From Verrucomicrobiales bacterium (GTDB lineage Bacteria; Verrucomicrobiota; Verrucomicrobiia; Verrucomicrobiales; DEV007): a DNA stretch of 37,099 bases. Below the pieces are notes generated by a model. It was not told where the DNA came from. It was given only the letters and a program-made list of their open reading frames with translations, and made no database searches. Position numbers and translations under genes: made by a program. Location of the stretch: positions 1 to 37,099 of the forward strand of contig JAHEJT010000029.1 in NCBI GenBank assembly GCA_024638765.1. Direction: 5' to 3'. Below, piece after piece: positions 1-21,968 of this stretch (positions within the stretch are counted from its first letter, which is position 1; each line of letters opens with the position of its first letter).

Positions 1-3000
1 CCGTCAGATTACTCGCGGGGGCACCGGGCTGGTCCTGCACATTCAGGGTCAGGAAGAGCAGGCTGCCCTCGACTGCGAGCCCCTCCGGCAGCGTGATCGC
101 TGCGTCCACCTCCAGCTCGTTCAGCGCCGAGGTGTCCAGGAAAAATCCGTCCGTCTTGCTGACGCCGAACCCTAGCGCCAGCTGCCACGTCAACGCCACC
201 TCCACCTTCGTGTCGACGTCGAGGCCCAGCCCGGGAATGCCGATGTCGAAGTCGATGTCGGCATCGTTCATGATGGTGTCGCCCAACAGAATGTCGAAGA
301 ACACCTCGTCCACACTGATGTTCAGGCCCACATCTTCCAGGTCGACCGTCGGAGCGCCGATTCGGTTACGCAGGATGTCCAGTCCTCCCGGACCCGGACC
401 CAAGGCGTCGAAGAGGGCTTGCCTCACCGTGGCCGCCCGCTTGTCGGGTTTCGCCTGGATCGCGGCGATGACCTGCGTCCGGAATCCCTCGATGAAGTCC
501 GCGACGTCCTTCAGGTTGTCGCCGACAAAAGGCAGATTGATCCCGAAGACCTCGCCCTGGAACGCGTCGCGAAGGAACTTCAGCAGCAGGTCGAGCCCGT
601 CGATGATGCCCTCGAGACTGTCCAGGGAGAAGTCGAAGCTGGCAATCTCCGTGGCGATGTCCGGCGAACTCATGGTCACCGCGTCGAGCTCGCCGAGGAA
701 CAGTCTCTGCAGACCGCTCACCATGGGCATCATGGACGGGACGGTCTCGATTTTCAAAGAATTACCCGGGACCGAACCGCCCAACGGGTCGGTCTCATCC
801 GGGTAGAACAGCGGAAGATCGATCTTCGCCTCGCCGGTCAGGCTGACTACCAGAAGATTCGTGTCCAACTCGCTCAGCAGGTAGCGCCCGTCACCGGAGG
901 GACCGGTATCGTCCATAATGCCGATCGTGAAGCTCGCCGGATCCGGGTTCGCCGGATTCCCGTCCGCATTCAGCGTCACCGTGCCGCCGCGGACGAATAA
1001 GTCCAGCGGACCGACGCCCGCGTCGATGTCGAGGTTGGTGCCCAGCACCTTCAAGGTCGCGGTGATGCCCGTGGTGTCGGAGACGAACGGCACCGGGCTG
1101 GCGGGGTCATTCAGATTGATGCCGAAATCGAGATCGAAACCGAACCCGGCGTCCACCGTCAACTGGCCCGTGGCCTTGACATCCACCAGGGACAGCACGT
1201 TGTTCAGCCCGGGCACCGCAGAGGTCGCCTGGGCGAGCAGCGACGCCAAATCGAGATTGAGATTGAGGTTTTCGTCGAACGCGTCCTCAAACGTGATGCC
1301 GATCAGCACGTCTTTCCCGCTCACGCTCAAATTGATCAGCGGACTGCCGGCCGGGAGACCCAGCGCCTGCTCGAGCCGGGTTTCCACCTCCTGAAGCACC
1401 GTCGCCGGATTCTTTTCGAGATCGTCGATCAGCATGGCGAAGTCATCGGCGTATCCCAGCACGTCGCTGATACTCAGGTTCAGACCCGGGATCTTCGCGC
1501 CCAGCAACGGAGTGCCGGCGATTTGCTCGAGATACTGCGCGATTTCCCGCAGCGCCGTGAGAATGTCGTCGAAGGTGAGCTGCTCAATATCCAGAACGGG
1601 ATTGAAATCGGTATTAAATTCCACCGTTGTTTTGGACAGATCGGAGAAGTCGGGCACGTCGATCGTGACCATGGCGCTCCCCAGGTCGCCCAGCAGCCCG
1701 CCGTCGACGGTAATATTCGAGAGATCGACCTGCGCCAACCCCGTGAAGGTCGTCTCGACCACCCGCGTGGGATCCGTGATCAGGTTTGCAAGCAGATCCG
1801 CCAGCGTGACCCGCCCGCCCGGCGTGCCGCTGGCGGGATCCGTCAAGTCCACCGCCAGCGTCCCCGTGCCCGACGCGCTGCCCCCGCTCACCGTGATGGC
1901 AATGAATCCCACGGAAGCGCTCGCGTTGATGGTGGTCGCCGAGAGTGTCACCGTGGCGTCGAATGACGCGTTCTCCAGGAAGAGCCGCTCGCTGAGCATG
2001 GCTCCCGCCGCCAGGTCCGACAAATCGAGGCCCAGCGTGAACGCCGCGTCCAGCATCGCCTCCAGCCGCACCGTGCTGCTGGTGCTGAGACCGGCCAGGG
2101 GCGAAAGATCCAAATTGAAATCCAGGGGCTCGTCCACCGGGGTGAACGCCTCGCTGAAGGCGAGATCGAAGCGCAGCTCATTGGTGGCCGGATCGTAGCG
2201 CGGATTGATCGCCGCCGCATCCAGCCCCGGGATCAGCGCCAGCCGGTCCACCAGCTCGTCGATCGAATCAAAGGAAGGCAGGCCTGGCGTCGCCGACGAT
2301 TCCAGCAATTCGAGGAGGTTCCTCGCGAAGGCTCCCGCCACGTCGATGATATCGCCGATGGTCCGGCCCTTGGTGAACGGGATATCCACGTCGAACAACG
2401 ACGCCAGCGGACCGCTGCCCAGTTGCGTCACCAGGAGATCCACCAGGTTGAGGATGTCCAGGGCCGAGAGGTTGTCGAAGTTTTGCAGTTCCTCGAAGCC
2501 GGTGGCGGTGAATGACGGCGGTGGATCCGAGAAAAGATCGTCGTCGCTGATCAATATCGTCCCCGTCGTCGCGAAGGCGCCTCCCACGGATGTGCTCACC
2601 GGAAGATTGACGTCGAGCATGGCGGTGACGTCGAAATCGACCAGGGTTCCCAGGCTCGTGCCCGCCAGCTCGGTGGCCGTGGTCTGGTTCTCGGGATCGC
2701 CGTCTACATTGTTGAAGTCGATCTCGAAACCCAGGTCCAGGTCGATGACCCCGCCACTGATGCTGCCCTCGACGATCCCGATATTCACACCGGCGGCGAA
2801 ATCCGTGGTGCTGACCCCGCCGGAAATGGAGAGTTGGTTCAGCTCCACGAAAAACGCGTCCGCGATCGGCAGCCCGGGCGTCAGATCGAGCCCGAACGCG
2901 AAATCGAACACGACGTCGAAATCGACGTCGAGAGTCGCGTCTAGGCTGATGCCGAGGGCGTCCGCGTCCGCGCCCAGCGACAGCGGGAGACTCCCCGCTG

Positions 3001-6000
3001 TGCGCGTCACCGCGACCGGCAGATCGAACCGCAGTTCGTTGAGATCCGCAAACGCCCCGCCCGACACGTCGCTCGGATTCACCGTCACCGCAAAGTCTCC
3101 GAAGTTGCGGCTCAACCCGCGCAGGGTCGCCAGCAACTCGTCGGTGTCCGGATCGGGATCACTGGTCAGGAAGGCCGCCACCGGATCCTTGATCGCCATG
3201 AGGATGATGCCGCCGAAGTCGAGCAGCTCGCCCACCGAGAGATCGACCAACGGCAGCGGCTCGGCCAGGAAACTGAAACTGTCGAACGACTGCGCCCAAT
3301 CCACCAGGGCCTGCAGGCCCGCGAGAATGGCGTCGATGTTATCGAGACTCAGCGAGCTCAGGCTGCCCACCACCGCGGAGGCGATGTCCGGCCCCGTCAT
3401 CGTCACCGAGCCGGGCACGCCGTTGAACACGTCCGTCAGGCTGGGGATATCGATGACCAGGTGATTCGCCGGCGCCGGCCCGCCGAGGGGCACGGTCGGC
3501 GCGGGAAAGAACACCGGCAATGTGGCGCTGACCCCCGCCGTCAGCGCAGGCGTTTCCAGGACGGAGAGACCCAGCTCGCTGATGAGGTAACGGCCGTCCG
3601 CCGCGTCGTCGGTGATCCCGAGCGTCAACGCAGCCGGGTCGCCGGTGGCGCGGTCGCCGTCAGCATCGATCCGCGCCACGCCGTCGATGACGTCGAGCCC
3701 GACCGGTCCCACCGCCGCCCGGAAATCGAGATTGGTCCCGTCGGCAAACAAGTCGAGCGTCACGCCCGTGGTGTCGCGCAGGAAAGGTGCGGGCGCCGCG
3801 GGATCGGAGAGATCGAACCCGATATCGAGATCGAGCTGGAAATTGGCGTCAATCGCGAGATCCCCGCTCGCTTCCACTCCCACCAGATCGTCGAGACCGC
3901 CCAGGCCCGGCGCCCCGCCGCTCACCAGCGCCACCAGGGAAGCCAGGTCCAGGTTAAAGCTTTCCATCCCGCTGAATCCCGCATCGAACGCGATGTCGAT
4001 GAGGAGATCGTCGCCCGACGGAGTGAACTCGATCAGCGGGCTGTCCGGCGTCAACCCCAACGCAATCTCCAGTTTTTCCTCGGCTTCCGCCAGCGTCGAC
4101 GCCGGATCGGATTCGAAGTCCTGGATCACCATGAGGAACTTATCCGCGTAATCGATGATGTCGCTGACGCTCTTGTTGACCAGGGGCAGCGGCTCGTTGA
4201 GGAACGAGAAGGTTTCGATATCGGCCAGGAAATCCTTGATCTGCCGCAGCATGGCCACGATGTCGTCGAAGGTCAGGTTTTCGTAATCGAGAAAGCCCTC
4301 GAAGGCCGCCGTCGCGGGAAGGGTCACCTCCACGTCGGTGGGCTTGCCCAGGTCCGCGATGGAAACCGTCAGGGTCGTGTCGGCCGACGCCGGCACGCCG
4401 AGGACGGGCGCCGCCAGCGGGAGACTGAAGTTCGCGGTGCCGGCAATCGCGGGACCGGAAATCAGGACACCCGGATCACTCCCGAGGGCGTCGATGAGCT
4501 CACTGACATCGATCCGTCCGTCCGCGAGATGGCTCCCGGGATCCTGGAGGTTGAGCGTCACCGAGAAATTCGCCGTGCCGATGCCATCCACCACTTCCAC
4601 GTCCAGGAAGCCGAAGCGCGCGGCGGCGTCGAGATCGCTGACGTCGAACTGGATGGATCCGCTGATGGAGGCATCCCGGATGAAAAGATTGTCGAGCAGC
4701 GAATCCACGTCGAAAGAAAGGTCGGAGAGATCGATGCCCAGCGTGAAATCGAACCCTGCCTCCACGTCGAGGCTCACCGCGCCTCCGGCGCTGAAATTGC
4801 CGAAGGCGTCGGCGGACCCGAGATCGAAGGAGAAAGTGTCATCGATCTCGAAGAACGTCTGGCCGTCCACCTGGTAAGTCAGCTCGCCGGTCGATTTGTC
4901 GAACGCCAGCCCCAGGTCTTCGAGATTGAAAATCACGTTGCGCAGTTCGCCGGTGACTTCTTCCGCTTCGCGTCCGTCGGCGATCGAGGAGGCGAGCACT
5001 TCCGCGAACTCCTGCGCGGTCCCGAAGCTGGCGACACTCTTGGAGGCGCCTTCAAACGAGAACCCCAGTTGGCTGAGGATCCGGGTGTCGAACGATTCGA
5101 GGACGTTGACCAGCTGGTCGAGGGTCTTGTCCAGGAACGGCACGTCCACGCCCAGCGCCGCGGTCACCGCGTTCAGCTGGTCACGCAATTCTTCCATCTT
5201 TCTCAGGAGATTCCCGGGGCGCAACGCCAGGAAATCCTCGAAGCTGGCGCCGTCCTGCGCGGCATCGTCGCTGATATCGACATTGAAGACGTCGCCGCCG
5301 ATGTCCGCCCACGTCAGGGTGATCCCGGTGTCGGCCAGGCCGAAGAAATCAAGTCCCTCCAGCACCACGCCGGCGCTCAAGGTCGCCGTGAAGACCACGT
5401 CCTTCGTCCCGGGACTGGAAATCCCGAACCCGAGCGCGGCGCCGCTGAACAGCGAGGGCAGTTCGGAAAGCCGGATCCGGCCGTCCAGCGCGTCCGTGCC
5501 GGGATCGCCCAGGTCAAAGCGCAGCTCGACGTTCTCGTCGAGGTTCAGCGTGACGTCGCTGAGCTCCACGCCCAGGAAACCGAAGCGCCCGCTGGCAATC
5601 GCGTCGCCCTGGATTTCGATGTTTGTCAGGACGATTTCCGGGCCGTCGAGGGTCGGCGCGATAAAGAAGCCGCTCTCATCGATGCCGAACCCGAAGTCCA
5701 GCGTCACGTCGACGCCGATCTCCATGCCGCCCTCGAACTGGATCACGTCGTCGAGTTCCAGGGCTTTGAGCAGGGCCATGCCGCCCACGTCGAGGTCGAC
5801 GATTCCTTTGAGCGTCTGGGTGAGGTTGATGTCGAACTGGAAAAACTCTTCGTCGCCGTCGCAGGGAAGTCCGGTGCCGAGATCCACGCAGGTCACGGAG
5901 GTGACGCCTTCCAGGGACGCCAGCGCGTCGCGCAGTGCCAGCGGGTCCTCGAGGATGCCGCCCGGGCGAATCTCGTCCAGGTCGAATCCGCTCTCCAGGA

Positions 6001-9000
6001 TGCGCAGCAGGAAGGAGCCCCCCACAAACTGCAGCGCGCCGCCCGGGGTCAGTTGCGCCGTTCCCTGGGTGGGAAAGAAGATCGGGTCCGCGCGCTCGAT
6101 GAAACTCCCGTTGAGCCCGCTGGCGAGGGTCCGCGCGTCCACCACCGCGAGGCTCTCCCCGCTCAGCCCGGCCGCCAGCAGGTCGCCCGCGCTCTCGGCG
6201 AAGGTCCTCAGCCCATCGCCCAATGTTGCAGTCACGCCGGCGCTGCCACCCGGCGGCGTCTCGATCCCAGGTGGCGCGGGTCCCGTCCCCTCGCCGGGAG
6301 CCGGCGCCGGAGGCGTGATGACGAGATCCGGGGCCGATTCGATCCCCCTAACTTCCAGCAGAAAGGATCGAGCCTTCCCCAGCGCTTCGGGAGCGCTGAC
6401 GGTAAACAACGTGCCGATCGGATCGTATCCGATGTCTTGCAGCATGCCGTAATCGATTTCCCCGGGCGTCAGCCGGAAGCCCTCCGTGAACGCCGGCACC
6501 ATGACACTGAGCCTGCTTCCCCCCTCGACCACACCCTCGCCGTCGCCGCGGACGTGGGCAATTCCGGTAGTGAACCCGATGGGCACCGGATTGCCGCCGT
6601 TCGCCGCGGTGGCGGCCGCGCCGGTGAAGTTTGTCTGAAAAGTTGGCAGAATCGGATTCGGCGGCTCGGGCAGTGCCGGATCCAGCAGTTCGGCAAAGGG
6701 CACCGCCCCGTTGTGCAGCCCCAGGATGTGGCCGATCTCGTGAATCGCGACGGAGAGAAAGTCGAGCTTACCGGAAGTCGCCAGCTCCACCAGATCGTCC
6801 ATCGGATCGTCGGGCGTGGCGTCGAAATACCAGGGTGTATCCTTGTTGAACGTCATGGATCCCGCCCACGGCTGAAAGTTGCCCCCTGTGACGCGCGCGA
6901 CCTGGTCCGCTCCCACGGCAGACGCAAACAGGGACTCCGCCACACCCGGCATCAGGAACTCGTCCGCACCGGGGTAAATGCGGAGATCATCGATCGTGCT
7001 TGCGCTGGTGAAAATGATCCGCGATCCTCCGCCCGACACCGAAGGAATCGGAATATTGATGGTCGCACCTTTGGGAAGATCCGGAAACTCGCTGCCGATT
7101 CTTTTGCTCCAGAAAGAGGCCGCGGCGTCGAGCAGTTTCCGCCGCAGGGGGTCGCTGAAGAAATTGCTCGCGTCCAAGCTGTAATCGAACTCGATGCTGA
7201 ATGTGGTGGCCGGGACCACGCCCAATTCGTTTTCCAACTCGAGAGTGTCCGCAGCCCCTGCCGAGTCGGCGACCACCACCCGGTCGCTCACCGTGATGGG
7301 ACCGTTGGCATTGTCGAGAATGACGCGGTCGTCGCCGCCGCCGCCGTCGATCTCGATCCTCAGGATCGTGGACAAATGGAAACTCTCGTCCGGCTCGCCG
7401 GGAACGGGACCGCCTTCGGGATACACGAACACGTCGAGCAGCCAGGGCTGCAATGCCCGGCGCACCAGGCGGATGACCTCGTCGGCGCCGTCGGTCCCTT
7501 CCACGCGCAAGACGCTCTCCGTGGTCAAGGTCGCTTTCGCATTCGAGACCATCCAGGCGCCACGGCCCAGGGTCCCCGCCACCAGCACGTCATCAGTCTC
7601 GTCGTAGCGCAGATCCATCACGATGGTGTTGGGCATCCCGCTGCCGTACTCGGTCCACTGCGCCTGCGAATTTTTCGGATCAATCGCGCGGAACACGCCT
7701 CCCAAACCGCCCGCCAGCACGACCGGCTTGTCATCGGCGGGATCCATCGTGTCGGCGCCCCGGTCGAGATAAAGTGCGATCGTCCGGGGCTGCTTGAGCT
7801 CGCGATTCCCCGTCAGGTTCCCCGTCAACTCCGTCCAGGTCGCTTCCCCCGTAACGGCGGCCCCGGTTTCCGCGGTCACGCCCTTGTCCAATTCGATCGT
7901 GTTGCTGGCCGGGTACAGTGTCGTAATCGTGCGGACCTCCGGCGCCCGGATGCCTGAGAGGTCCCGGATCACCACCGACATTCCCGGCGCAAACCCGTCG
8001 AGCGCGCCGACCGAAATCCGGGTCGCATTAACGGCCGCGGCGGAGAGCGTCTGCTCCACCTCGCCCAGAACGACGTCCCCACGCCACACTTTCCCGTTCG
8101 CATCCAGCACGAACACCTGGCGCCAGTTGTCGGGGTTGAGGACGAGATCGACCACCGCCGCGTCGTTCGGTCCCCCGGCCCCGGTCGCGACCCTCGACCA
8201 GCTCAACAGCTCCTGGAAATCCCGGTCCGCGGCCACGCGCACCCAGATCGCGCCGTCTCTTCCGTCGCCCACGCCCGCGTACCCAATACGCTCGTGATCC
8301 ACCAGCATTCCGGATGCGTCCCGCAGGCGGCCCCCGTACGCCAGGGTCGTAATCGACCCGATCTCCGCCGTCGCCGGCGGGCGCCAGGAAGAAGTAAAAC
8401 TCGTCCGATACGGCTCCCCGTTCCGCAGCGTGATGTCGTCCCCCGGATCACCCCCGAACAGATCCGGATCCTCTTCATACAGATAGTTCGTCCCGAAGAG
8501 CAGCAGGTTCGGATTCACCGTGTTCACGGCGAACTGCGGCGTGAATCGCGTCTTGACCGTGGAATCGAAATTCGTCAGTTCATCATCGTCAAACCCCAAA
8601 GCGCCGAACAAGGCCGTGCCATTGACCTCGAGATCGCGGAGGTCCCCGGAAGTCGACAGATCCTCGACGGCCTGGAAGTTGGAGAATTCCTGGGCGCTGA
8701 TGTACTTGGTGCTCTTGGTCGCCGTGTTCACCACCTGGACGATCCCGCCGTCCCCGCCCAGCAGGCTCACCCACACCTGCGAGCCGGGATTCTGGCGGAC
8801 CGTGCCGTTGTCCTGTGCCCCCCCGAAAATGACGTTGTTGACAGGGTCGTAGGCAATCGAAATGAATTCTGTAAGCCCCAGGTCCCCGACCACGGATTGC
8901 CACCGCAGGGCTACGCTGTCCGGTGCCTTCAGCCGGTAAATGCCACCGTCATCCGCCTCGAGGATGTTCCCGTTCCGGTCGTAGGTCATGAAGCGGGAGT

Positions 9001-12000
9001 CGGCATGCGGCGCCGTGCCGCCGGCTCCCGCGCCGACAATCAGCTCCCACGTCGTGGAACCGTCGCCAGGATTGAAAAAGCCTCGCATCAGTCTGCCCGT
9101 ATACGGCGGGACGGGTTGGGTATCGCCCCCCACATAGACCTCGTTTGCGTCGGTTGCCGAAGCCAGGATCGAGAAATGCGTCGAGCCCTGCGCGCCCGTC
9201 AAGAGAGTTTCTCCCCCCGCCCTGGGGTCATCCAAAGATTTCCAAGTGGATCCGCCGTCCCCGCTCCGGAAGACATTGAGCACCCTCGCGGCCTCTCCGG
9301 TGAGACGTAGCATCGCCCCGGCCTCGTGATTGTTCTCCAGACTGCTCCCAAAAGTGATCTGGTGCGTGGCTCGATCGATAGATGCGATTTTCAATGCATC
9401 TTTCGTCGTGGCTTCCACCCGCGTATCGATTCCCAGAGTTACCGGTTTATCCAGTTGGATCTCCTTGGATCCAGGGAAGACCTCGACGATCTTTCGCTTG
9501 CTTTCCCCCACCTTCACCTCCATCTCCGCGGCAAACCCTGCCACCGATCTCATCTCGAGGCGAGTGCCAATGGCGACCGCGGCAGTAAACTGCAACGCTC
9601 CCAGCTCGACGCTGTCCCCCGGTTCGAAAACAGAAGCATCGGCCACCGTAATCGTGCTCGTGCCCGAACTCGCGGCCGCCGCCAGCGGAGCGCGCTGTCC
9701 GACGGTGGCCGCGTAAACCGTCTCCGCGTCGTGCGCCGAGAGCACCACCTTCCAAGCATCCGAAACGTCGATGACATCCTCGTCCGAACCGTCGACCGGC
9801 GCCCAGGTCACGCCGAAGTCGTCGCTACGAAACACGCCGTGATCCGGAACCGCCGCGTAAACCCGCTGGCCGGAGCCGGCCCGTATCAGGCTCGACACAT
9901 CGAACGGCCGTCCGAGGAGGCCGTCCCCCACCAGGGTGAGGGGCGCAGCCGTGATGCGAATGGTCGAAGCGTTGGGAACATTCTGGATGATGTGCTCGCC
10001 GTTCAGGCTCGGCATGGAGCTGTTGCCGGAGACGATGATTTTCTCACCAGCGACGAAGTCGCTCCCGAGGCCGATGTAAGAGATCTCCACCTGGGTACCT
10101 GCCTGCGTCGCTGAAATAATGTTGTAATCCGCCAAGAGGGAGATGGCCGTGAACGTCATCCCGCCGTCGGTGCTGCGGAAGAGGCCGCCATCGCGAATCC
10201 AGTCAGGGAACGCACTTGGGAGGTGCCCGTTGGAGGCGACCAGCACCGTGTCGTTGTCCTGCCCGAAAGTGCTCGGCTCCACCAGGATCCCCGAAATCGC
10301 ACGATTGCCGAGCAGCGACCCCTTGGCGGTGCCCGCCGGCGGTTCCACGGCATCCAGCACCGTCCAGTTCCGGCCCCCGTCGATGCTCTTGATAACCCCG
10401 ATCTCGTCGCCGCCCTCACCCCGGTAACTGCTTGTCCGGCCCGTCCCGGCGTAGAGCACCAAATCCTCGATCGGGGTCGCCAGTGTCACCTCGGCGCCGA
10501 TCCGGTCGCGCGAACTGACCGTCAACGCCGTGATCGATAGGGAGGGCAATTGGTCGGTCAGCGGTTCCCAGTTCGGCGACGCCGCGATCGCGTTCTGCGT
10601 CCGCCAGATCCCGCCGTTGACCGATCCGATGAAGAGAATGTCCGGATCCACCGGGTGCGTCGCGATCACCTGGATGGCGCCCGACGCCGCGCCGCCGTCG
10701 GCGGTGGGCTGGCCGTCCTGGATCGCTCCGGGACCCTGCGGATCCCACGTGGGCACCCCCGTCAGCGTGATCGACTCCCCACCCGGCGTCTCGGCGCCCG
10801 GAGAAGAATCCGAAGAATCCCCGCTGACAGAATGAAACAAATCGGCGGCGTCGATATCGCCGTCGCCGTCGAAATCGTACTGCGGATGATAGCCTTCCTG
10901 GCCCACGCTCGTGAGGTAAGCCGCTTCAAACGAGGCTGCTGCACCCCCGGCAACTTCCAGCGACTTGTCCGGCGCAGGAAGCGTGACCACCACGTCGACG
11001 GTCACATTGGTGTCGTTGTAAGTCGCGGCCAGTTCGAGTCCACCGCCGATATCGGTTCCGGTCACCGCGTCGAACTCCGTCCCGCCACGCGAACCAAAGG
11101 TCATGATCTGGAAGCTGTTGCCTTCGACCGGCGTAAAGCCGCCGTCAATCTGCAGATCCAGGATCCCGGCAAGCGTCGCCGTCCCCGAGACGCTGATCCG
11201 CCCGAACTCGCTCGTCGAAGTGCCGGCAATCGCAACCGCGAGGGTTCCCGGGTCGACCGAATCCGTTTGCGTAAAGTCGCCGGCAAACGCCGCCGTCCGG
11301 CCCGCAGCGACATTGATTTCCCCGCTGTTGGCAAAGCTGGCGTGCCCGGTGACGTTAAGATTGCCCCCGCTCACGTTGATCGCTCCTGCGTTGACGTGGT
11401 CGGCTCCCGCTCCGTTGATCGTGAGGCCCACGTCCACCTGCACCGTCGCTCCCGCCTCGTTCTCCAGCTGCCCCGTGATCGTGCGCGTCCCCAGCGTCCC
11501 GCTCCCCGCCACCACCTCAATCACTCCCCCGGACTCGTTGACCAGCGCCGCCCCGCCGACCGCCAGCGTCGCGTTGCCCACGTTGTCCGCGCGGACTACG
11601 CCCTGCGTCAATTCCACCAATCCCCGGTTCACCACCTCGCCGTTCACGTTCAGCGTCAGCGATGTCACGAACCCCGTCGAGGCTCCGTTGTAGGTGTTGA
11701 ACGGCAGCACCCGCAGCGTCGCCCCGGCCTCGTTGGTAATGCTCCCGTTCACGCTCCCGCTCGCCCCGCCGCTTATCGCCGCATAGCGCGCCTCGAACTC
11801 ACCCTCGTTAACCACATCCGCGTTGATCTCCGACCCTGCGTTCATCGTGAGGACTGTGCCCACCGGATTAATCACTCTCGTCCGGTCCATTCCCGCTCCG
11901 GTGGCGTTGACCGTCACCCCGCTGGTGAAGATCACCGACGGCACGCTCGCATTCCAGTCAGTGAGCAGTTCCACCGTCGCCCTGGTGAGCAGCAACCTGC

Positions 12001-15000
12001 CTTCTCCTCCGACGGTCCCCCCATTCTGGGTGAACGTCCCGTCACGGACTTCCAGTTGCCTCCCGCTCGACACGCTGATCGTTCCGCTCTGCGTGATGTT
12101 CGAGCTGCTTTCCGGTAAAACCAGGTCGCCCCCGCTCACGTTGATCGCTCCCGCGTTGATGTGATCGGCTCCCGCCCCGTTGAGCGTAAGGCCCACGTCC
12201 ACCTGCAGCGTCGCTCCCGCCTCGTTCTCCAGCTGCCCCGTGATCGTGCGCGTCCCCAGCGTCCCGCTGCCCGCCAGCACCTGGATCACTCCCCCGGCCT
12301 CGTTGACAAGCGCCCCGCCGCTCACCGCCAGCCTCGCGTTGCCCACGTTGTCCGCGCGAACCACGCCCTGCGTCAATTCCACAACCCCCCGGTTCACCAC
12401 CCCGCCGTTCACGTTCAGCGTCAGCGATGTCACGAACGCCGTCGAGGCTCCGTTGTAAGTGTTGAACGGCAGCACCCGCAGCGTCGCCCCGGCCTCGTTG
12501 GTAATGCTCCCGTTCACGCTCGCGGACGCCCCCCCGCTTATCGCCGCATACCGCGCCTCGAACTCGCCCTCGTTGACCACATCCGCGTTGATCTCGGCGT
12601 TGCCGTTCGTGCGCAGCGTATTGCCCGCGGCGTTCGTCAGCACCCCGGCGGCACTCAGCGTGCTCCCGTTCACGCTCACATCCAGCAGGCTCGTCGCAAA
12701 CGCCCCCGCCAGCTCAACCGTCGCGCTACTCAAAGTCCACTGACCCCCGTCGCCGCTGCCCTGAAGCACCGCGGCCGCAGCCTGCCTCCACGCCGCGCGA
12801 TCCACCAGCAGCGTCCCGTCGATATCAATTGCCCCTCCATCATGCACAAACTCGCCGAACTCCACTTCCAGCTGCCTTTCCTGCCCAATCGTGATGGTCC
12901 CGGTATTGGTCGTGCTCGGAGTGTCTTCACTCTGGGTGATCTTCAGATTGCCCCCGCTCACGTTGATCGCTCCCGCGTTGAGGTGATCGGCTCCCGCCCC
13001 GTTGAGTGTAAGGCCCACGTCCACCTGCAGCGTCGCTCCCGCCTCGTTCTCCAACTGCCCCGTAATCGTGCGCGTCCCCAGCGTCCCGCTCCCCGCCAGC
13101 GCCTGGATCACTCCCCCGGCCTCGTTGACAAGCGCCCCGCCGCTCACCGCCAGCCTCGCGTTGCCCACGTTGTCCGCGCGGACCACGCGCTGCGTCAATT
13201 CCACCAGTCCCCGGTTCACCACCTCGCCGTTCACGTTCAGCGTCAGCGATGTCACGAACCCCGTCGAGGCTCCGTTGTAGGTGTTGAACGGCAGCACCCG
13301 CAGCGTCGCCCCGGCCTCGTTGGTAAAGCTCCCGTTCACGCTCGCGGCCGCCCCGTCCCTGATCGCCGCATAGCGCGCCTCGAACTCGCCCTCGTTGACC
13401 ACATCCGCGTTGATCTCCGCGTTGCCATTCAAAACCACTTCTCCGTGGTTGCGCAAAGGATCAAATTCCACCCCGATTACCGAACCGTTGCCGATTTCCA
13501 GCCGGCCATTTTCCGCCACCGTCACGAGGCGCTGACTGGCGAGATTGTGTCCGTTGGTCCGGAGGATCGCGGTGGCGCCGTCGGCCGCCCCTATCGTGAG
13601 GGTATTGACTGCAGCATCGCCGTTCAAATTGATCGTGACCGATTCGGTGACATCGGCGACAACGTCGTCAAACTCGAGCGGCGCGCGGCCTTCAGACCAG
13701 TTCGCATCGTCCTCCCAGTTCGTGCTGAACCCGCCGATCCAGGTATTCACGATCTCGACGACGGAAAATGCCCGCATTAATTCCGAGGCCCCCAACGGGT
13801 TTCCAGCCCTGTCCGTGATGGAATTCGCCGCCAGCGTAAATACGTATTCGCCTTCCGTCAGAGGATCGTAAGTGATCTGCACAACCCTGTCACCGTTGCG
13901 GGTCTGGATGTCGAGCGGCGCGATGAATGCGCCCGCCCCGTCACGCAGTTGGAAGTTGTCCGTCGAGACCGTGGCCGCATCCAGCGGTTCGTCAAAAACA
14001 AAGGTCACTCGCCTCAACCCGTGCGCCAGGGTCGCCCCGTCCGCGATCGTGGCATCGAGGATCATGGGCGCGAAGGTGTCGGGGATCAGCTCGAAAACGA
14101 TCTGCGCAGAGAGCCCGACGTTGCCTCCCGTATCCATGGCGCGCACCTGCGCCGTCGTCATGCTCCCGAGTTCCCCGGCCAGCGCGATGGCTTTCAAATC
14201 AAAGGGGAACGAGACATCGTTCCGCACGACTTCGCCGTTCACGAGGAGCTCCACGTTGCGCACCTGCACGTCATCGGTGATGCTGGCGGTAATCGGGACA
14301 GAAGACCCCTCAAGCACCTGGATGCCGGGAACGCCTGGATCGAGATCCGTCCCCGCCGGAAGGCCGATCGTCACGCTCGGGGGCGCGCCCTGGTTGTCGA
14401 ACGGGAGGTAGTTGACCACCTGCAGCCCGGCGCCGCCGTCGGCCACGTAAGCGATGCCCCCGCCAAGGGCAAGACTTTGCGGGACCGCGGGTAGCGTGAT
14501 CCGGGTCACGGAAGCGTTGGTGATCGCGGGGTCCGATACATCCATCAAGTCGAACGCGTTCTGTCCGAACGAATCCCCGACGAGAATGCCGATGCCCGAT
14601 CCGTTGAGCACGATGGCGTTGCCGGGCCCGAAGTTGGCGCCGGGTGGCAGGCTCGGGCCGGCGATGACTGCGGGGAAATCCGGATCGGAAACATCGACCG
14701 TGGTGAATCCCCCCGCAACCCCGTTGTTCTTCGCGGCAACGTAGGCGACGCTGTTCCCCACGAAGAGCTCGCCTCCGCCCAGGGCGAGTTGGACCGTTCC
14801 CCGTTTGCTCATATCGCGGTCCGCAAGGTCGACCACCGAGAGATTCCGGCTCGCATCCAGCGTATAGAGGAGCGAGCCTTCCCGCGCGATCTCGATGATT
14901 TCCCCCGAATTGAGGTTCAGTTTCTCAAGCCTTTCGCCGGTGAGCACATCGTAGCTGATCACCGATGTCAGACCGGCGACATAAGCCACACCCTCGAACA

Positions 15001-18000: not shown

Positions 18001-19309
18001 CCGACACCGGTCCGGCGCCCGAGCCCACGATCTCCGCCATCACGTCAGCCGCTTCCCCGGCCTGGACCACCCGGCCGCCCACCGCGGGATCGAGGGTAAT
18101 GCCATCCAAAGGATCGACCCCCGAATCGGCCGCCAGGGACGCAAACACCCCGGCCTGGGGCGCCAGCGTGCTCAGCGCGTTCTGGGCAAAATCGAAGAGA
18201 TCGGCGTTATCGACGTCCCCATCGCCGTCGCGGTCGAAGCGGTCGTCATAGGCGGGATCGGTATCGGGCTTGAGATAGGTCTGGGCGAGGAAAAAGGTGT
18301 CGACGAAATCGACATCCGTATCGCCGTCGGCATCCCCGAAGTAAACGTGGAAGTCGGAGACGTAATCCCCGCCCGGCGCGCCGTCTCCGTCGCCGTCGAG
18401 GTTCTCTCCGGACGATGCTCCCGACACCGCAGCAGATTGCAGCGCCACCAGGTAATTGCCGTCCGGCAAGGCGCCCCCTTCAAACCCGGGAAAGGTCCAC
18501 GTGCCGGTGTTCGATCCGCCGTCATAGGCGAACGCCAGTGACGCCGGACCGACAATCGTGTCCGTGGTCAAGTTGCGCAGAATGAGATCGTCCACGGTGA
18601 GCGTCGTGGAGACGTCCTCCGAGAACATGATCTCGAGCGAAATAATGACCGAGCGCTGCGCTTCGCCCCCGTTGAGGGTCAACCCCGTCACACTCGTGAC
18701 CGGCACCAGCCCTTCTGCCAACAGTAAGGCACTCTCCCCCTGGGGCGGGGCATTCGCCGCCGTCAGCGTTTCCACCAATTGGGCGGGAATCGGGTTCGAG
18801 ATATCGGTCTGTGATAGTGACACAGGCGTCCCGCCTGTGATCTCCAAAGGTAACGCAGGCGTCTTGCCTGCGATGGGCAGGCGAGACGCCTGCCTCACAT
18901 TGCTCTCCTTCCCTGCCACGGCGAAGCCGTCAGGCGAAGTCGGGTCATCACTAGACACTCCCTCCTCGTCACTCGTCCCTCCTTCGGCGACCCCGTCAAA
19001 CATCCCGTCGACCACGTCCGCGGGATCATAGAGAATCTGCCCGGACGTGGATTCGCCTGCTTGATCGGTTTCCTCGTGGGGCTCGACGATGACCGCCTGC
19101 GGCTGATCATCCTCCGATTCGGGCTGCAGCGCCTCGGCGAGCGGATCCGCGGAAAGCAGAATGCGCGGCTCGAGCGCTTCCAGCTTGAAAGCGTCATCGC
19201 TTGCCCGCCCGCCGCGCCGGCCCCGAACGCCCTCGGAGGCGGGCGAGGCCACAGTGCCGCTTGGCCAACCTTCGAAGAGGCCGTCGTTAGATCGGGGGTA
19301 GTGCATCAT
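1..19309 (-). CDS. Giant gene A: LEPR-XLL multidomain extracellular protein, 3' end outside window
   Basis: One frame reads from an ATG-ATG pair at 19309 to the window edge, at least 6,436 codons. I checked the frame at about ten points and found no break. Order by residue: LEPR-XLL motif (46-54); in-frame REP-like insertion (138-167); dockerin-like calcium repeats (about 324-378); Ig-like, Big_5 and carboxypeptidase-regulatory-like domains (500-970); a possible galactose-binding-like sandwich (1067-1190); TSP3-like D-S-D-S-D-G repeats (1274-1331); LVIVD propeller; Ig-like and Big_5 domains; beta-solenoid (1964-2650); D-F-D-G-D-G-D motif near 2811; VPS10/BNR propeller (2850-3924); GGGGDDR calcium-like turn near 3987; metzincin-like domain (4037-4290); six ~305-residue modules to the edge. 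There is no conventional signal peptide, as is usual for LEPR-XLL proteins. No strong Shine-Dalgarno is seen; the start rests on the LEPR-XLL motif lying about 45 residues in. It is likely a secreted or surface adhesin with proteolytic potential; the substrate is unknown. Confidence 0.9.
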   Translation of the reverse strand, partial: MMHYPRSNDGLFEGWPSGTVASPASEGVRGRRGGRASDDAFKLEALEPRILLSADPLAEALQPESEDDQPQAVIVEPHEETDQAGESTSGQILYDPADVVDGMFDGVAEGGTSDEEGVSSDDPTSPDGFAVAGKESNVRQASRLPIAGKTPALPLEITGGTPVSLSQTDISNPIPAQLVETLTAANAPPQGESALLLAEGLVPVTSVTGLTLNGGEAQRSVIISLEIMFSEDVSTTLTVDDLILRNLTTDTIVGPASLAFAYDGGSNTGTWTFPGFEGGALPDGNYLVALQSAAVSGASSGENLDGDGDGAPGGDYVSDFHVYFGDADGDTDVDFVDTFFLAQTYLKPDTDPAYDDRFDRDGDGDVDNADLFDFAQNALSTLAPQAGVFASLAADSGVDPLDGITLDPAVGGRVVQAGEAADVMAEIVGSGAGPVSVAGDLGIDGRFLFDAARLTALNGGTALEDGLIALRLVVEDGSGGVMDALDIGFTLDTQGPAADSGLSGTLRVTFNSFELGFGEEVTPNGFDAGSYELTVMGGPNDGQVIGIDSVEQLGAGLARINLASALPDQDYEFTIDAAIRDIAGNPISNPGPTAFSVGDPTGIREFSPGNGEEMVSLTREAIVRFDEPVDPATVTQDTFYAIANGALVAGRIAVSSTERFATFFFDDPLPSSTEVRIVVEGDLITGRDGLPVDADGDDAPGGTGMADFRTVPNTRIPGTNVTGRVLASEPDDLGNDVPLEGVTIRVDGFPGLFAVTDANGEFILEDVPAPVFFVHVDGSTVTSMGGQPVPDDGFYPIVGKPFHSVPGQTAPLQMDGVPFDIYLPFILDEAIHPVVPGEDTVVRLPDAQIQGDPDLALVELTVPAGSLVAADGTPGTKVGIFRVDSDRLPAPLPGGLDHRFDITVQADVDYFDVPAPITFPNLEGLAPGEKTFLMSFDHGRGEWVIVGTMTVSQDGLTVTTDPGVGIQAPGWHGNQNTTNLDCNNFAQTLGSGISCRTLRDNPMFDEALQEPPGPLDFPDSPGNHADSSDPQEGLVFSPAIPAGFDFGSAVSPVEAGFIPVSPGTNYSPATGYGFVPVEGSRVLQGVDRGDLPGLSAVERDFVETDAAVFLIDVPVGFYEVVVVSGDSDRPRNQTGIGFQNELRGNISSVAGEFRRFSYQVAAADGQIRLAIGRLGSTLAAVNAVEITRLGSLIGEPGFAEVTGGNYFLLENLDAAFAQRGTSNSLPDLARKLVLAPNTGYRLTFFNTQSLTLGSTEFSTGPGGTSMTLPSIILAESGDEDSDSDGLADEIENVIGTLPSVADSDGDGISDLAEIQQGLDPLEGLAFPTGVIASLPLMGEALRVEVVGSILDGRDQTAYVATGSHGLAIVDASEFDNPVVLGQLDLPGNNVDVAVDAARNTAVLASTAGIHFVDISDPMLPVLRETVEFVGGVNAVEVFEGVAYVAGLTSVISYDVLTGERLEKLNLNSGEIIEIAREGSLLYTLDASRNLSVVDLADRDMSKRGTVQLALGGGELFVGNSVAYVAAKNNGVAGGFTTVDVSDPDFPAVIAGPSLPPGANFGPGNAIVLNGSGIGILVGDSFGQNAFDLMDVSDPAITNASVTRITLPAVPQSLALGGGIAYVADGGAGLQVVNYLPFDNQGAPPSVTIGLPAGTDLDPGVPGIQVLEGSSVPITASITDDVQVRNVELLVNGEVVRNDVSFPFDLKAIALAGELGSMTTAQVRAMDTGGNVGLSAQIVFELIPDTFAPMILDATIADGATLAHGLRRVTFVFDEPLDAATVSTDNFQLRDGAGAFIAPLDIQTRNGDRVVQITYDPLTEGEYVFTLAANSITDRAGNPLGASELMRAFSVVEIVNTWIGGFSTNWEDDANWSEGRAPLEFDDVVADVTESVTINLNGDAAVNTLTIGAADGATAILRTNGHNLASQRLVTVAENGRLEIGNGSVIGVEFDPLRNHGEVVLNGNAEINADVVNEGEFEARYAAIRDGAAASVNGSFTNEAGATLRVLPFNTYNGASTGFVTSLTLNVNGEVVNRGLVELTQRVVRADNVGNARLAVSGGALVNEAGGVIQALAGSGTLGTRTITGQLENEAGATLQVDVGLTLNGAGADHLNAGAINVSGGNLKITQSEDTPSTTNTGTITIGQERQLEVEFGEFVHDGGAIDIDGTLLVDRAAWRQAAAAVLQGSGDGGQWTLSSATVELAGAFATSLLDVSVNGSTLSAAGVLTNAAGNTLRTNGNAEINADVVNEGEFEARYAAISGGASASVNGSITNEAGATLRVLPFNTYNGASTAFVTSLTLNVNGGVVNRGVVELTQGVVRADNVGNARLAVSGGALVNEAGGVIQVLAGSGTLGTRTITGQLENEAGATLQVDVGLTLNGAGADHINAGAINVSGGDLVLPESSSNITQSGTISVSSGRQLEVRDGTFTQNGGTVGGEGRLLLTRATVELLTDWNASVPSVIFTSGVTVNATGAGMDRTRVINPVGTVLTMNAGSEINADVVNEGEFEARYAAISGGASGSVNGSITNEAGATLRVLPFNTYNGASTGFVTSLTLNVNGEVVNRGLVELTQGVVRADNVGNATLAVGGAALVNESGGVIEVVAGSGTLGTRTITGQLENEAGATVQVDVGLTINGAGADHVNAGAINVSGGNLNVTGHASFANSGEINVAAGRTAAFAGDFTQTDSVDPGTLAVAIAGTSTSEFGRISVSGTATLAGILDLQIDGGFTPVEGNSFQIMTFGSRGGTEFDAVTGTDIGGGLELAATYNDTNVTVDVVVTLPAPDKSLEVAGGAAASFEAAYLTSVGQEGYHPQYDFDGDGDIDAADLFHSVSGDSSDSSPGAETPGGESITLTGVPTWDPQGPGAIQDGQPTADGGAASGAIQVIATHPVDPDILFIGSVNGGIWRTQNAIAASPNWEPLTDQLPSLSITALTVSSRDRIGAEVTLATPIEDLVLYAGTGRTSSYRGEGGDEIGVIKSIDGGRNWTVLDAVEPPAGTAKGSLLGNRAISGILVEPSTFGQDNDTVLVASNGHLPSAFPDWIRDGGLFRSTDGGMTFTAISLLADYNIISATQAGTQVEISYIGLGSDFVAGEKIIVSGNSSMPSLNGEHIIQNVPNASTIRITAAPLTLVGDGLLGRPFDVSSLIRAGSGQRVYAAVPDHGVFRSDDFGVTWAPVDGSDEDVIDVSDAWKVVLSAHDAETVYAATVGQRAPLAAAASSGTSTITVADASVFEPGDSVELGALQFTAAVAIGTRLEMRSVAGFAAEMEVKVGESKRKIVEVFPGSKEIQLDKPVTLGIDTRVEATTKDALKIASIDRATHQITFGSSLENNHEAGAMLRLTGEAARVLNVFRSGDGGSTWKSLDDPRAGGETLLTGAQGSTHFSILASATDANEVYVGGDTQPVPPYTGRLMRGFFNPGDGSTTWELIVGAGAGGTAPHADSRFMTYDRNGNILEADDGGIYRLKAPDSVALRWQSVVGDLGLTEFISIAYDPVNNVIFGGAQDNGTVRQNPGSQVWVSLLGGDGGIVQVVNTATKSTKYISAQEFSNFQAVEDLSTSGDLRDLEVNGTALFGALGFDDDELTNFDSTVKTRFTPQFAVNTVNPNLLLFGTNYLYEEDPDLFGGDPGDDITLRNGEPYRTSFTSSWRPPATAEIGSITTLAYGGRLRDASGMLVDHERIGYAGVGDGRDGAIWVRVAADRDFQELLSWSRVATGAGGPNDAAVVDLVLNPDNWRQVFVLDANGKVWRGDVVLGEVEQTLSAAAVNATRISVGALDGFAPGMSVVIRDLSGIRAPEVRTITTLYPASNTIELDKGVTAETGAAVTGEATWTELTGNLTGNRELKQPRTIALYLDRGADTMDPADDKPVVLAGGLGGVFRAIDPKNSQAQWTEYGSGMPNTIVMDLRYDETDDVLVAGTLGRGAWMVSNAKATLTTESVLRVEGTDGADEVIRLVRRALQPWLLDVFVYPEGGPVPGEPDESFHLSTILRIEIDGGGGDDRVILDNANGPITVSDRVVVADSAGAADTLELENELGVVPATTFSIEFDYSLDASNFFSDPLRRKLLDAAASFWSKRIGSEFPDLPKGATINIPIPSVSGGGSRIIFTSASTIDDLRIYPGADEFLMPGVAESLFASAVGADQVARVTGGNFQPWAGSMTFNKDTPWYFDATPDDPMDDLVELATSGKLDFLSVAIHEIGHILGLHNGAVPFAELLDPALPEPPNPILPTFQTNFTGAAATAANGGNPVPIGFTTGIAHVRGDGEGVVEGGSRLSVMVPAFTEGFRLTPGEIDYGMLQDIGYDPIGTLFTVSAPEALGKARSFLLEVRGIESAPDLVITPPAPAPGEGTGPAPPGIETPPGGSAGVTATLGDGLRTFAESAGDLLAAGLSGESLAVVDARTLASGLNGSFIERADPIFFPTQGTAQLTPGGALQFVGGSFLLRILESGFDLDEIRPGGILEDPLALRDALASLEGVTSVTCVDLGTGLPCDGDEEFFQFDINLTQTLKGIVDLDVGGMALLKALELDDVIQFEGGMEIGVDVTLDFGFGIDESGFFIAPTLDGPEIVLTNIEIQGDAIASGRFGFLGVELSDVTLNLDENVELRFDLGDPGTDALDGRIRLSELPSLFSGAALGFGISSPGTKDVVFTATLSAGVVLEGLDFFGLADTGITLTWADIGGDVFNVDISDDAAQDGASFEDFLALRPGNLLRKMEELRDQLNAVTAALGVDVPFLDKTLDQLVNVLESFDTRILSQLGFSFEGASKSVASFGTAQEFAEVLASSIADGREAEEVTGELRNVIFNLEDLGLAFDKSTGELTYQVDGQTFFEIDDTFSFDLGSADAFGNFSAGGAVSLDVEAGFDFTLGIDLSDLSFDVDSLLDNLFIRDASISGSIQFDVSDLDAAARFGFLDVEVVDGIGTANFSVTLNLQDPGSHLADGRIDVSELIDALGSDPGVLISGPAIAGTANFSLPLAAPVLGVPASADTTLTVSIADLGKPTDVEVTLPATAAFEGFLDYENLTFDDIVAMLRQIKDFLADIETFSFLNEPLPLVNKSVSDIIDYADKFLMVIQDFESDPASTLAEAEEKLEIALGLTPDSPLIEFTPSGDDLLIDIAFDAGFSGMESFNLDLASLVALVSGGAPGLGGLDDLVGVEASGDLAIDANFQLDLDIGFDLSDPAAPAPFLRDTTGVTLDLFADGTNLDFRAAVGPVGLDVIDGVARIDADGDRATGDPAALTLGITDDAADGRYLISELGLSVLETPALTAGVSATLPVFFPAPTVPLGGPAPANHLVIDIPSLTDVFNGVPGSVTMTGPDIASAVVGSLSSLSLDNIDAILAGLQALVDWAQSFDSFSFLAEPLPLVDLSVGELLDFGGIILMAIKDPVAAFLTSDPDPDTDELLATLRGLSRNFGDFAVTVNPSDVSGGAFADLNELRFDLPVAVTRTAGSLPLSLGADADALGISLDATLDVDFDVVFDFAFGLDLTPGLPIADAFFVELNQLSISGGVSTTDFAAGVNIGIVEGSISGGVIDLDLGFEIDFNNVDGDPENQTTATELAGTSLGTLVDFDVTAMLDVNLPVSTSVGGAFATTGTILISDDDLFSDPPPSFTATGFEELQNFDNLSALDILNLVDLLVTQLGSGPLASLFDVDIPFTKGRTIGDIIDVAGAFARNLLELLESSATPGLPSFDSIDELVDRLALIPGLDAAAINPRYDPATNELRFDLAFSEAFTPVDEPLDFNLDLSPLAGLSTSSTVRLEAMLDAAFTLGLDLSDLAAGAMLSERLFLENASFDATVTLSATTINASASVGFIAITVSGGSASGTGTLAVDLTDPASGTPGGRVTLADLLANLITDPTRVVETTFTGLAQVDLSNITVDGGLLGDLGSAMVTIDVPDFSDLSKTTVEFNTDFNPVLDIEQLTFDDILTALREIAQYLEQIAGTPLLGAKIPGLNLSISDVLGYADDFAMLIDDLEKNPATVLQEVETRLEQALGLPAGSPLINLSVSGKDVLIGITFEDAFDENLNLNLDLASLLAQATSAVPGLNNVLSLVDVKATGQLTVDAGFGFDLDFGINLNDPASPVPFVSDTTGITATLKVLGTNLDIDAGVGPLDLFVRGGTVTLNADGNPANPDPASFTIGIMDDTGPSGDGRYLLSELDTNLLVVSLTGEAKIDLPLFYPDETDPLGGSVPGNSLKIETVPSMMPMVSGLQRLFLGELDAVTMSSPDIATEIASFDFSLDSLEGIIDGLDLLLKFLRDAFQGEVFGINLPFVGDNLKDVADFIEGFRTQVIAAIQAKPDKRAATVRQALFDALGPGPGGLDILRNRIGAPTVDLEDVGLNISVDEVFFDILLGDTIMNDADIDFDIGIPGLGLDVDTKVEVALTWQLALGFGVSKTDGFFLDTSALNELEVDAAITLPEGLAVEGSLLFLTLNVQDQPGAPASNLT
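460..5560 (-). repeat. Six tandem ~305-residue modules of unknown family in gene A
   Basis: Two landmarks recur about every 0.92 kb. One is a helical stretch of the form LP-x(5-6)-dll-D-x(4)-F at about 5125, 4165, 3230, 2360, 1462 and 508. The other is a (D)GR-x(3)-S/A-EL turn at about 5478, 4517, 3592, 2670 (degenerate), 1812 and 884. Between them lie beta-rich blocks with repeated D-x-D-x-G-F/L-x-L pattern. Modules 2 and 5, and 3 and 6, resemble each other most, giving a ~2.7-kb higher-order period. The array appears to continue past position 1. I do not recognise the family. Confidence 0.75.
6440..7205 (-). other. Metzincin-like metalloprotease domain of gene A
   Basis: Residues about 4036-4290. 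A segment with FSIEFDYS and SMTFNKDTPWYFDATP precedes a zinc-binding helix, HEIGHILGLHN, with His4190, Glu4191 and His4194. A candidate Met-turn, SVMVP (Met4270), is followed by LTPGEIDYGMLQDIGYDP. The combination fits a matrixin-like protease as found in large secreted bacterial proteins. The third His sits one position early (His4199), and Asn4200 occupies the canonical ligand place. Activity is therefore uncertain. Confidence 0.7.
7540..10760 (-). other. VPS10/sortilin-like BNR propeller of gene A
   Basis: Residues about 2850-3924 contain Asp-box motifs (S-x-D-x-G-x-T-W): SIDGGRNW, FRSTDGGMTF, FRSDDFGVTW and FRSGDGGSTW (the last from residue 3347). There is also a GGAQDNGT turn, and GTLGRGAW at the end, both typical of VPS10/xyloglucanase-like ten-bladed propellers. 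Extra short beta inserts interrupt some blades (for example 9940-10110 and 9320-9700). Carbohydrate or peptide binding is possible, but no catalytic pair could be assigned by eye. Confidence 0.75.
11363..11830 (-). repeat. Beta-solenoid repeat unit 3 of 3 in gene A
   Basis: This is the third 468-nt unit, after a 297-nt spacer. It is followed by a segment (about 11350-10990) with the pattern FTQ-x-GTL ... G-T-A-x-L-x-G-x-L, typical of the capping strands after autotransporter-like solenoids. A dockerin-like DFDGDGDIDAADL motif follows at about 10840-10876. Confidence 0.88.
12128..12595 (-). repeat. Beta-solenoid repeat unit 2 of 3 in gene A
   Basis: This 468-nt unit is nearly identical over long stretches to the units on either side. 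It is separated from unit 1 by a 354-nt spacer whose sequence is not conserved, although the spacer is also strand- and Gly/Asn-rich. All unit and spacer lengths are multiples of three. Confidence 0.88.
12950..13417 (-). repeat. Beta-solenoid repeat unit 1 of 3 in gene A
   Basis: This is a 468-nt (156-residue) unit closely matching 12128-12595 and 11363-11830 at the DNA level. It encodes stacked short strands rich in Asn, Gly and Ala, with landmarks EINADVVNEGEFEARYAA, NTYNGAST and LTLNGAGADH. It is first in the direction of translation and follows a W-x-G-G / W-x-D-x-x-N-W entry motif at about 13620-13750. Confidence 0.88.
14395..15325 (-). other. LVIVD-type beta-propeller of gene A
   Basis: Residues about 1330-1640 repeat a blade pattern in which a strand such as LAIVDASEFDNP or FVDISDPMLPVL is followed by a short VxVDAA or AYVA strand. 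This is the signature of LVIVD repeats, which fold as propellers on secreted proteins. It is preceded by TSP3-like calcium motifs and followed by an Ig-like and a Big_5-like domain (about 14390 down to 13760). The same cassette in the same order occurs in gene B. Confidence 0.75.
18132..18689 (-). repeat. Paralogous N-terminal segment, copy in gene A
   Basis: This segment is similar at the nucleotide level, and in the same orientation, to 36557-37099 in gene B, with identical runs of 25-39 nt and a net 15-nt length difference. It encodes a beta-rich domain containing TVDDLILRNLTTDTIV and the following dockerin-like repeats. The two copies are about 18.4 kb apart. Confidence 0.9.
18176..18343 (-). 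other. Dockerin-like paired calcium repeats in gene A
   Basis: Residues about 324-378 hold two EF-hand-like loops, DADGDTDVDF and DRDGDGDVDNADLF, with the usual Asp/Gly spacing of type I dockerin-like repeats. In non-cellulosomal bacteria such repeats are taken to bind calcium and perhaps to mediate protein contacts. No cohesin is recognisable in the window. Confidence 0.75.
18817..18898 (-). repeat. REP-like palindromic element inside the coding frame of gene A
   Basis: Three related units, each built on an (A)CAGGCGTC-CCGCCTG(T) type core, follow one another. The last two face each other as an imperfect inverted repeat. The core matches the intergenic element at 20593-20654. Here it is translated as residues 138-167 and includes GGTPVSL and RQASRLP strings, with no stop or frameshift. 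It lies in the low-complexity linker between the LEPR-XLL motif and the region shared with gene B. Confidence 0.8.
19142..19183 (-). other. LEPR-XLL N-terminal motif of gene A
   Basis: Residues 43-56 contain LEPRILLSA, followed by an acidic, low-complexity stretch. This motif marks the N-termini of very large proteins in Planctomycetota, Verrucomicrobiota and some Proteobacteria, and is thought to belong to an atypical export leader. It supports both the chosen start and export of the protein. Export itself is inferred. Confidence 0.85.
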
Positions 19310-19896: not shown

Positions 19897-20313
19897 TCAA
19901 ACCAACGGATTCACCACCGTCACTCCGTCAAAATCCTGATCCGCGTTCAGATCTTCGGACCATAACGTGGAAACGCCGGCCTGCATGGCGGCTGCGACGA
20001 TGAGGGCGTCCCAGAACGAAAGTTGCCACCTCTGTTGCGCCTCCCATCCTTTGCGGAGCAAGGCGCGGGTGTTTTCCATGACGCGCCACGACAGGTAATG
20101 GGTGGTGGTGTCGACGGATTCATCCACAGTGGCACCGAGGCGCACCAGATTGACGTGCATTTCCTGGAGCACTTGGACGCTGACCACGGGCGATTCCCGC
20201 TGCTCCCAGAATCCGCGCACCAACGCGGCCGCTTTCGCGTGTTTGGCGCCCGCATCCAGGTCATGCGCATACACGAGGATGTTCGTGTCGATAAAGACGT
20301 CGGCCGCCGTCAT
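19897..20313 (-). CDS. vapC: VapC-type PIN-domain ribonuclease toxin
   Basis: This 138-residue protein has the full acidic set of PIN-domain RNases: Asp9 in FIDTNILVYAHD, Glu51 in VLQEMHVN, Asp102 in SFWDALI, and Asp121 in WSEDLN. VapC toxins cut RNA, often tRNA or rRNA, and are held in check by the antitoxin encoded just upstream. Its ATG overlaps the TGA of the upstream gene in an ATGA arrangement, so the two are translationally coupled. The length is normal for the family and nothing suggests inactivation. The RNA target cannot be told from sequence. Confidence 0.93.
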   Translation of the reverse strand: MTAADVFIDTNILVYAHDLDAGAKHAKAAALVRGFWEQRESPVVSVQVLQEMHVNLVRLGATVDESVDTTTHYLSWRVMENTRALLRKGWEAQQRWQLSFWDALIVAAAMQAGVSTLWSEDLNADQDFDGVTVVNPLV

Positions 20314-21959: not shown

Positions 21960-21968
21960 TACCAAAGT

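Follow-up and report, generated by a model that had tools for sequence, protein, structure and literature searches.

Giant genes are already known in PVC bacteria (PMC12057145), and a Vibrio protein of ~8,000 residues combines the LEPR-XLL motif with RTX repeats (PMC10868602). In classical RTX proteins (PMC6891781), the repeats adjoin the secretion signal close to the C-terminus. Giant bacterial proteins remain mostly unannotated. Here, we describe a module family found in tandem in one such protein of a verrucomicrobial draft genome (5.4 Mb), which marks, together with the RTX repeats, a core shared by giant proteins of several unrelated phyla. The stretch of DNA analysed, hereafter the window, is the entire contig C74 (37,099 nt) of this genome.

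The giant protein and its module array

The N-terminal motif of the window protein (Table 1) exceeds the curated cut-off of NF012209, which makes it a LEPR-XLL protein. Its residues 4366-6449 form seven modules (M0-M6), of which M0 is partial and M6 is cut by the contig end. The first-pass annotation had placed six tandem copies at 460-5560 with a period of 0.86-0.96 kb. The tandem array is real and the repeat is present there, but the coding strand is the minus one and the copies are seven, with an eighth on another contig. The period and its recurring anchors were confirmed: the exact DGR-x3-EL turn is found at residues 4622, 4943, 5251 and 6153, the equivalent spots of two other modules carry NQTTATEL near residue 5555 and GGRVTLADL near residue 5844, and successive anchors are 289-321 aa (867-963 nt) apart. 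Self-similarity near the expected distances of ~305 and ~900 residues is far above that of shuffled sequences, with a best 300-aa local score of 640 (shuffled maxima, 65-98); without gaps, the best lag is 899 aa at a score of 545, and the next one 311 aa at a score of 109.

The protein probably continues on contig C14 of the same genome, a single open frame across all 14,591 nt that encodes the last (eighth) module, 26 RTX (HemolysinCabind) stretches and, behind them, beta-helix, malectin and further domains. Indeed, a conserved region of a relative matches the window end with its positions 3-247 and C14 with its positions 263-709. If this join, drawn by homology between contigs that share no sequence overlap, is right, the giant protein is probably about 11,300 residues long or more.

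Several other features of the window were noted. The zinc-protease-like site upstream of the array (Table 1) is also present in the relative L002, and a Dolichospermum giant protein displays a Pfam matrixin (M10) domain at the equivalent place. The 15-residue stretch NADVVNEGEFEARYA occurs three times in the giant ORF (residues 1980, 2254 and 2509; about 11,800-13,400, minus), within longer, very similar repeats. A second giant ORF (22033-37098, minus, 5' end cut) with 20 FG-GAP_3 stretches is a paralogue of the first, with which it shares 71% over 290 aa and 44% over 618 aa. Between both giant genes lie a PIN-domain protein (19897-20313, minus) and a protein resembling, by eye and without Pfam hit, PHP-type metal hydrolases (20676-21965, minus).

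Table 1. Features of the giant protein and its modules, with positions in the window.
Feature	Residues	Position	Strand	Basis
Giant ORF, 6,449 codons		2..19348	minus	open frame; 3' end cut by contig end
LEPR-XLL motif (LEPRILL)	54-76	19121..19189	minus	NF012209, 32 bits vs cut-off 17
HExxHxxG zinc-protease-like site, directly upstream of array	4203-4213	6710..6742	minus	sequence pattern only
M0, incomplete (strand part present, helical part weak)		5270..6253	minus	HMM i-E 1.3e-21
M1	4696-5019	4292..5263	minus	HMM 3e-46
M2, p3 class	5020-5329	3362..4291	minus	HMM 5.1e-62; tree
M3, nearest p6 class (weak support)	5330-5622	2483..3361	minus	HMM 1.9e-49; tree
M4, nearest p5 class	5623-5919	1592..2482	minus	HMM 3.9e-55; tree
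M5, p3 class, sister of M2	5920-6237	638..1591	minus	HMM 4.8e-53; tree; sliding identity
M6, contig-end cut, p2 class, penultimate module	6238-6449	2..637	minus	HMM 1.8e-41; tree
EF-hand-like loop of M0, TDALDGRIRLSE, degenerate		5462..5497	minus	loop-pattern alignment
EF-hand-like loop of M1, SHLADGRIDVSE, degenerate		4499..4534	minus	loop-pattern alignment
EF-hand-like loop of M2, DDAADGRYLISE, D1, D5, G6, E12 kept		3575..3610	minus	loop-pattern alignment
EF-hand-like loop of M5, GPSGDGRYLLSE, D5, G6, E12 kept		869..904	minus	loop-pattern alignment

Spread of the module family

As the first reading of the sequence had proposed, the module belongs to no named family in the collections searched: no Pfam-A or NCBIfam model names the region (no hit in residues 4201-6449 of the window protein) and, among PDB sequences, nothing of it is recognisable apart from an EF-hand-like loop. 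A literature search, which left out most subscription journals and all bioRxiv preprints, returned no account of it. A profile built from the window modules only recovered 129 modules in 31 proteins (i-E<1e-3) from Verrucomicrobiota, Planctomycetota, Cyanobacteria and Alphaproteobacteria; run against reversed sequences and the neighbouring giant protein, it gave nothing better than E 0.14. Upon iteration, the profile levels off at about 162-163 domains, with one reversed-sequence hit at 7e-4. A 59-row alignment of mixed modules was badly fragmented (1,441 columns) and was left out of the analysis. Judged from these comparisons, the module is a previously unnamed, predicted extracellular domain family of ~300 residues.

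Counting its own genome, the module is present in six of 57 near genomes (window-only alignment) and, with a better profile, in six of 388 genomes across the phylum, and is therefore uncommon. Assemblies of Verrucomicrobiota provide the relatives at the order or family level. A scan of a genome collection yielded 26 loci, isolates included, in Verrucomicrobiota, Planctomycetota (including Rhodopirellula rubra), Cyanobacteria, Alphaproteobacteria and a few others, while modules also occur on plasmid records of Thalassospira, Microvirga, Geminocystis, Gloeothece and Dolichospermum. The viral contigs and phages searched contain no relatives of the module. Many of the giant exoproteins that bear an array are LEPR-XLL proteins.

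Order of the modules and adjacency to RTX repeats

Counting positions from the C-terminal end of the array (p1, p2, p3...), modules at the same position share 25.1% (p1), 26.5% (p2) and 21.6% (p3) identity between phyla, compared with 15.8% for unlike positions and 16.1% for modules within one protein. In the module tree, p1, p2 and p3 each group across phyla, by position and not by protein; the order of these last three modules is therefore old. From p4 to p7, raw identity displays no same-position excess and the tree groups for p5 and p6 are weaker, the sequence-based case for an old order being strong solely for the last three positions.

The RTX repeats begin 55-148 residues past the last module in every protein with sequence beyond the array (31/31), and RTX-like hits upstream of the array are rare. 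Since the scan query (A4) stopped before the RTX block, this adjacency was not built into the search. In the window protein, HemolysinCabind repeats are absent from the module region and reside on C14, its inferred continuation; they are present in the relatives. Arrays comprise two to nine modules per protein, and the smallest form seen, two modules and RTX, occurs in some Cyanobacteria, such as Geminocystis and Nostoc, and in Microvirga. In Geminocystis, Gloeothece and Microvirga, both modules are located near the ORF start and therefore need not support anything N-terminal.

As to export and a possible type I secretion, in Thalassospira (L050, 10646-29611; L073, 4982-22025) the giant genes are followed by genes for HlyD and for an M50-type protease fused to a biotin/lipoyl domain, and in T. 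marina also by adaptor and TolC genes; these neighbours perhaps constitute an export system that works without the usual ABC transporter. In the genome under study, a HlyD above cut-off is encoded on another contig than the giant gene. Two Verrucomicrobiota relatives have no export genes beside their giant genes. In two Verrucomicrobiota relatives (L083, 6334-10371; L084, 6038-10165), the giant gene is followed by a gene for a large IgGFc_binding/Laminin_G_3 protein.

Duplication within the array

The DGR-anchored pairs 2/5 and 3/6 of the first-pass annotation, considered there as the closest ones, correspond to M1/M4 and M2/M5 (2,703 and 2,706 nt apart). M2 and M5 are indeed close, with about 47% identity compared with 23-36% for the remaining pairs, but M1 and M4 share only 28%, which is not above what either shares with relatives. 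Along the 900-residue lag, identity is about 26% before residue ~5000/5900, then mostly 43-56% to ~5330/6240. This stretch has sharp borders that coincide with one module, ending with M2; the clear duplicate is therefore one module and not three. In the same line, the tree joins M2 with M5 (support 0.95), and places neither M1 with M4 nor M3 with M6. We therefore reject growth of the array by duplication of a three-module block, as initially proposed, and consider that the 900-residue lag mainly reflects a single duplicated module at that distance, besides which an older block event may have taken place. As synonymous sites are near saturation between M2 and M5 (dN 0.52, dS 1.16), their duplication is not young.

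Predicted structure and the EF-hand-like loop

AlphaFold modelled the last module pair of the relative L058 (27 rows, including M6 of the window) with a pLDDT of 71 and a pTM of 0.45; on the six window modules alone, the pLDDT was 37. In the L058 model, both modules are organised alike: helices come first and are followed by long strands of up to 23 residues, a loop and further long strands, while EF positions 7-9 form a short strand. The module is thus predicted as an amphipathic helical part, which contains the LP helix, followed by long antiparallel strands that form a sheet and two of which flank an EF-hand-like loop. The mixture of beta blocks and long amphipathic helices that had been read from the window sequence reappears in this model of a relative. 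Foldseek comparison of the L058 model, itself of moderate confidence, with the PDB gave no convincing match (best E 1.8e-3, best probability 0.51, TM below 0.2), and the best viral structure reached E 5.6e-4 with a TM of 0.12. Outer-membrane barrels, gasdermins, lipid-transfer proteins and levivirus maturation proteins were rejected as fold neighbours, being non-significant or without structural overlap. On this model, the fold may be new.

The DGR-x3-EL turn does recur, as first described, but aligns in relatives to D-x-N-x-D-G-x-V-x-x-x-E, and is better viewed as a putative EF-hand-like calcium loop on the basis of this alignment and of PDB and Pfam matches. A profile of the last module pair searched against all PDB sequences returned EF-hand type proteins only (among them neuronal calcium sensor, calmodulin-like proteins and obelin), aligned exactly at the loop (best E 0.0036), and Pfam EF-hand hits occur in six of 27 members. 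The strict pattern D-x-[DNS]-x-[DN]-G-x-[ILVFM]-x3-E is found in 50 of the 160 modules, compared with 0.35 expected from shuffled sequences. Canonical loops belong mainly to the last two modules of the relatives and, with either E or D accepted at position 12, are present in 24 of 31 last modules. None of the seven window modules has the strict loop, DG and E being kept in four of them. Because of this degeneration, calcium binding by the window copies is doubtful; by sequence, the main targets of calcium may be the last module and the RTX block, both encoded on C14.

Discussion

Without calcium, RTX blocks lack order, and they fold once outside the cell. Extending this behaviour to the modules, we propose that they form a calcium-dependent ordered scaffold joined to the RTX roll, a function that we consider the most likely one and to which we give an even chance. 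The family, the order of its last modules, their adjacency to RTX and the loop motif are established by the present data; calcium binding, folding on export and a rod shape are what we infer. The chain would remain loosely folded in the low-calcium cytoplasm and be exported in that state; outside calcium would then fill the EF-like loops, mainly those of the last two modules, together with the RTX roll, and induce folding. The folded array would be stiff and position-specific, and would hold the binding or enzyme domains next to it apart.

A bolder proposal, which we regard as unlikely, is that the modules adopt a new alpha/beta fold and, through their position-specific order, build one continuous calcium-locked structure in giant exoproteins of at least four phyla; this structure would be a mechanically stiff arm, or would take up hydrophobic material in a groove or conduit. 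Another reading, also quite unlikely, is that the modules bind or carry hydrophobic ligands, their long amphipathic strands and amphipathic helices creating a groove for lipids or pigments that perhaps runs along the whole array. The alternating D-x-D-x-F-x-L strands, with a predicted length of up to 23 residues, the amphipathic helices and the weak Foldseek neighbours (MTP, CETP, vitellogenin and outer-membrane barrels) point towards it, and a fixed module order would suit a shaped conduit better than a spacer; however, large sheets of any kind commonly have such alternating strands, and all these fold matches fall below significance.

That the array is a plain stalk of interchangeable spacer repeats grown by block duplication, as in large bacterial adhesins, would account for tandem modules in a giant protein and for the M2/M5 pair at the 900-residue lag. 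It is nevertheless improbable, as modules within one protein are about 16% alike compared with 22-27% at the same position across phyla (p1-p3) and the border of the duplicate matches one module. To the same degree, we doubt that the modules serve solely to cap the RTX roll or to nucleate its folding: the narrow range of distances to the RTX block and the sufficiency of two modules in some Cyanobacteria and Microvirga fit such a role, but capping alone hardly accounts for other lineages, which have up to seven modules more. Finally, the block occupies a position common for the working domain of RTX proteins, has weak gasdermin/perforin fold neighbours and recalls the Vibrio LEPR-XLL giant protein with RTX that was suggested to be cytotoxin-like (PMC10868602), but a role as the active part of an RTX-type membrane-acting protein is very improbable given non-significant fold matches, pore-forming families without sequence match and an adhesive or carbohydrate-related look of the remainder of these proteins.

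Beyond the window protein, the family and its two-module minimal form, whose small size allows expression, make the role of the unannotated middles of these giant proteins directly testable.

Comparison with known systems

Among described systems, Ig-like adhesin stalks (Big, Calx-beta, SdrD_B) similarly consist of tandem domains in giant surface proteins. The modules differ from them, as was suspected from the window sequence, by their larger size (about 300 aa), the helices in the model of the relative, an order that is fixed towards the RTX block, and the absence of any Ig-like model match. With EF-hands and EF-like loops (PF00036), they share the 12-residue loop D-x-N-x-D-G-x-hydrophobic-x3-E, but theirs is single, predicted to be entered from a beta strand, embedded in a large alpha/beta module and degenerate in the window. 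The LEPR-XLL giant proteins (NF012209, LEPR-8K) are close in that the window protein and several Verrucomicrobiota relatives, all giant, carry the motif near the N-terminus. However, NF012209 covers a 24-residue motif only and leaves the module array outside, and modules also occur in proteins that lack the motif by pattern search (Geminocystis, Dolichospermum). Finally, the RTX repeats (PF00353, HemolysinCabind) that directly follow the array link these proteins to the RTX family, yet, compared with the classical members, their RTX block is often placed mid-protein, with thousands of residues after it.
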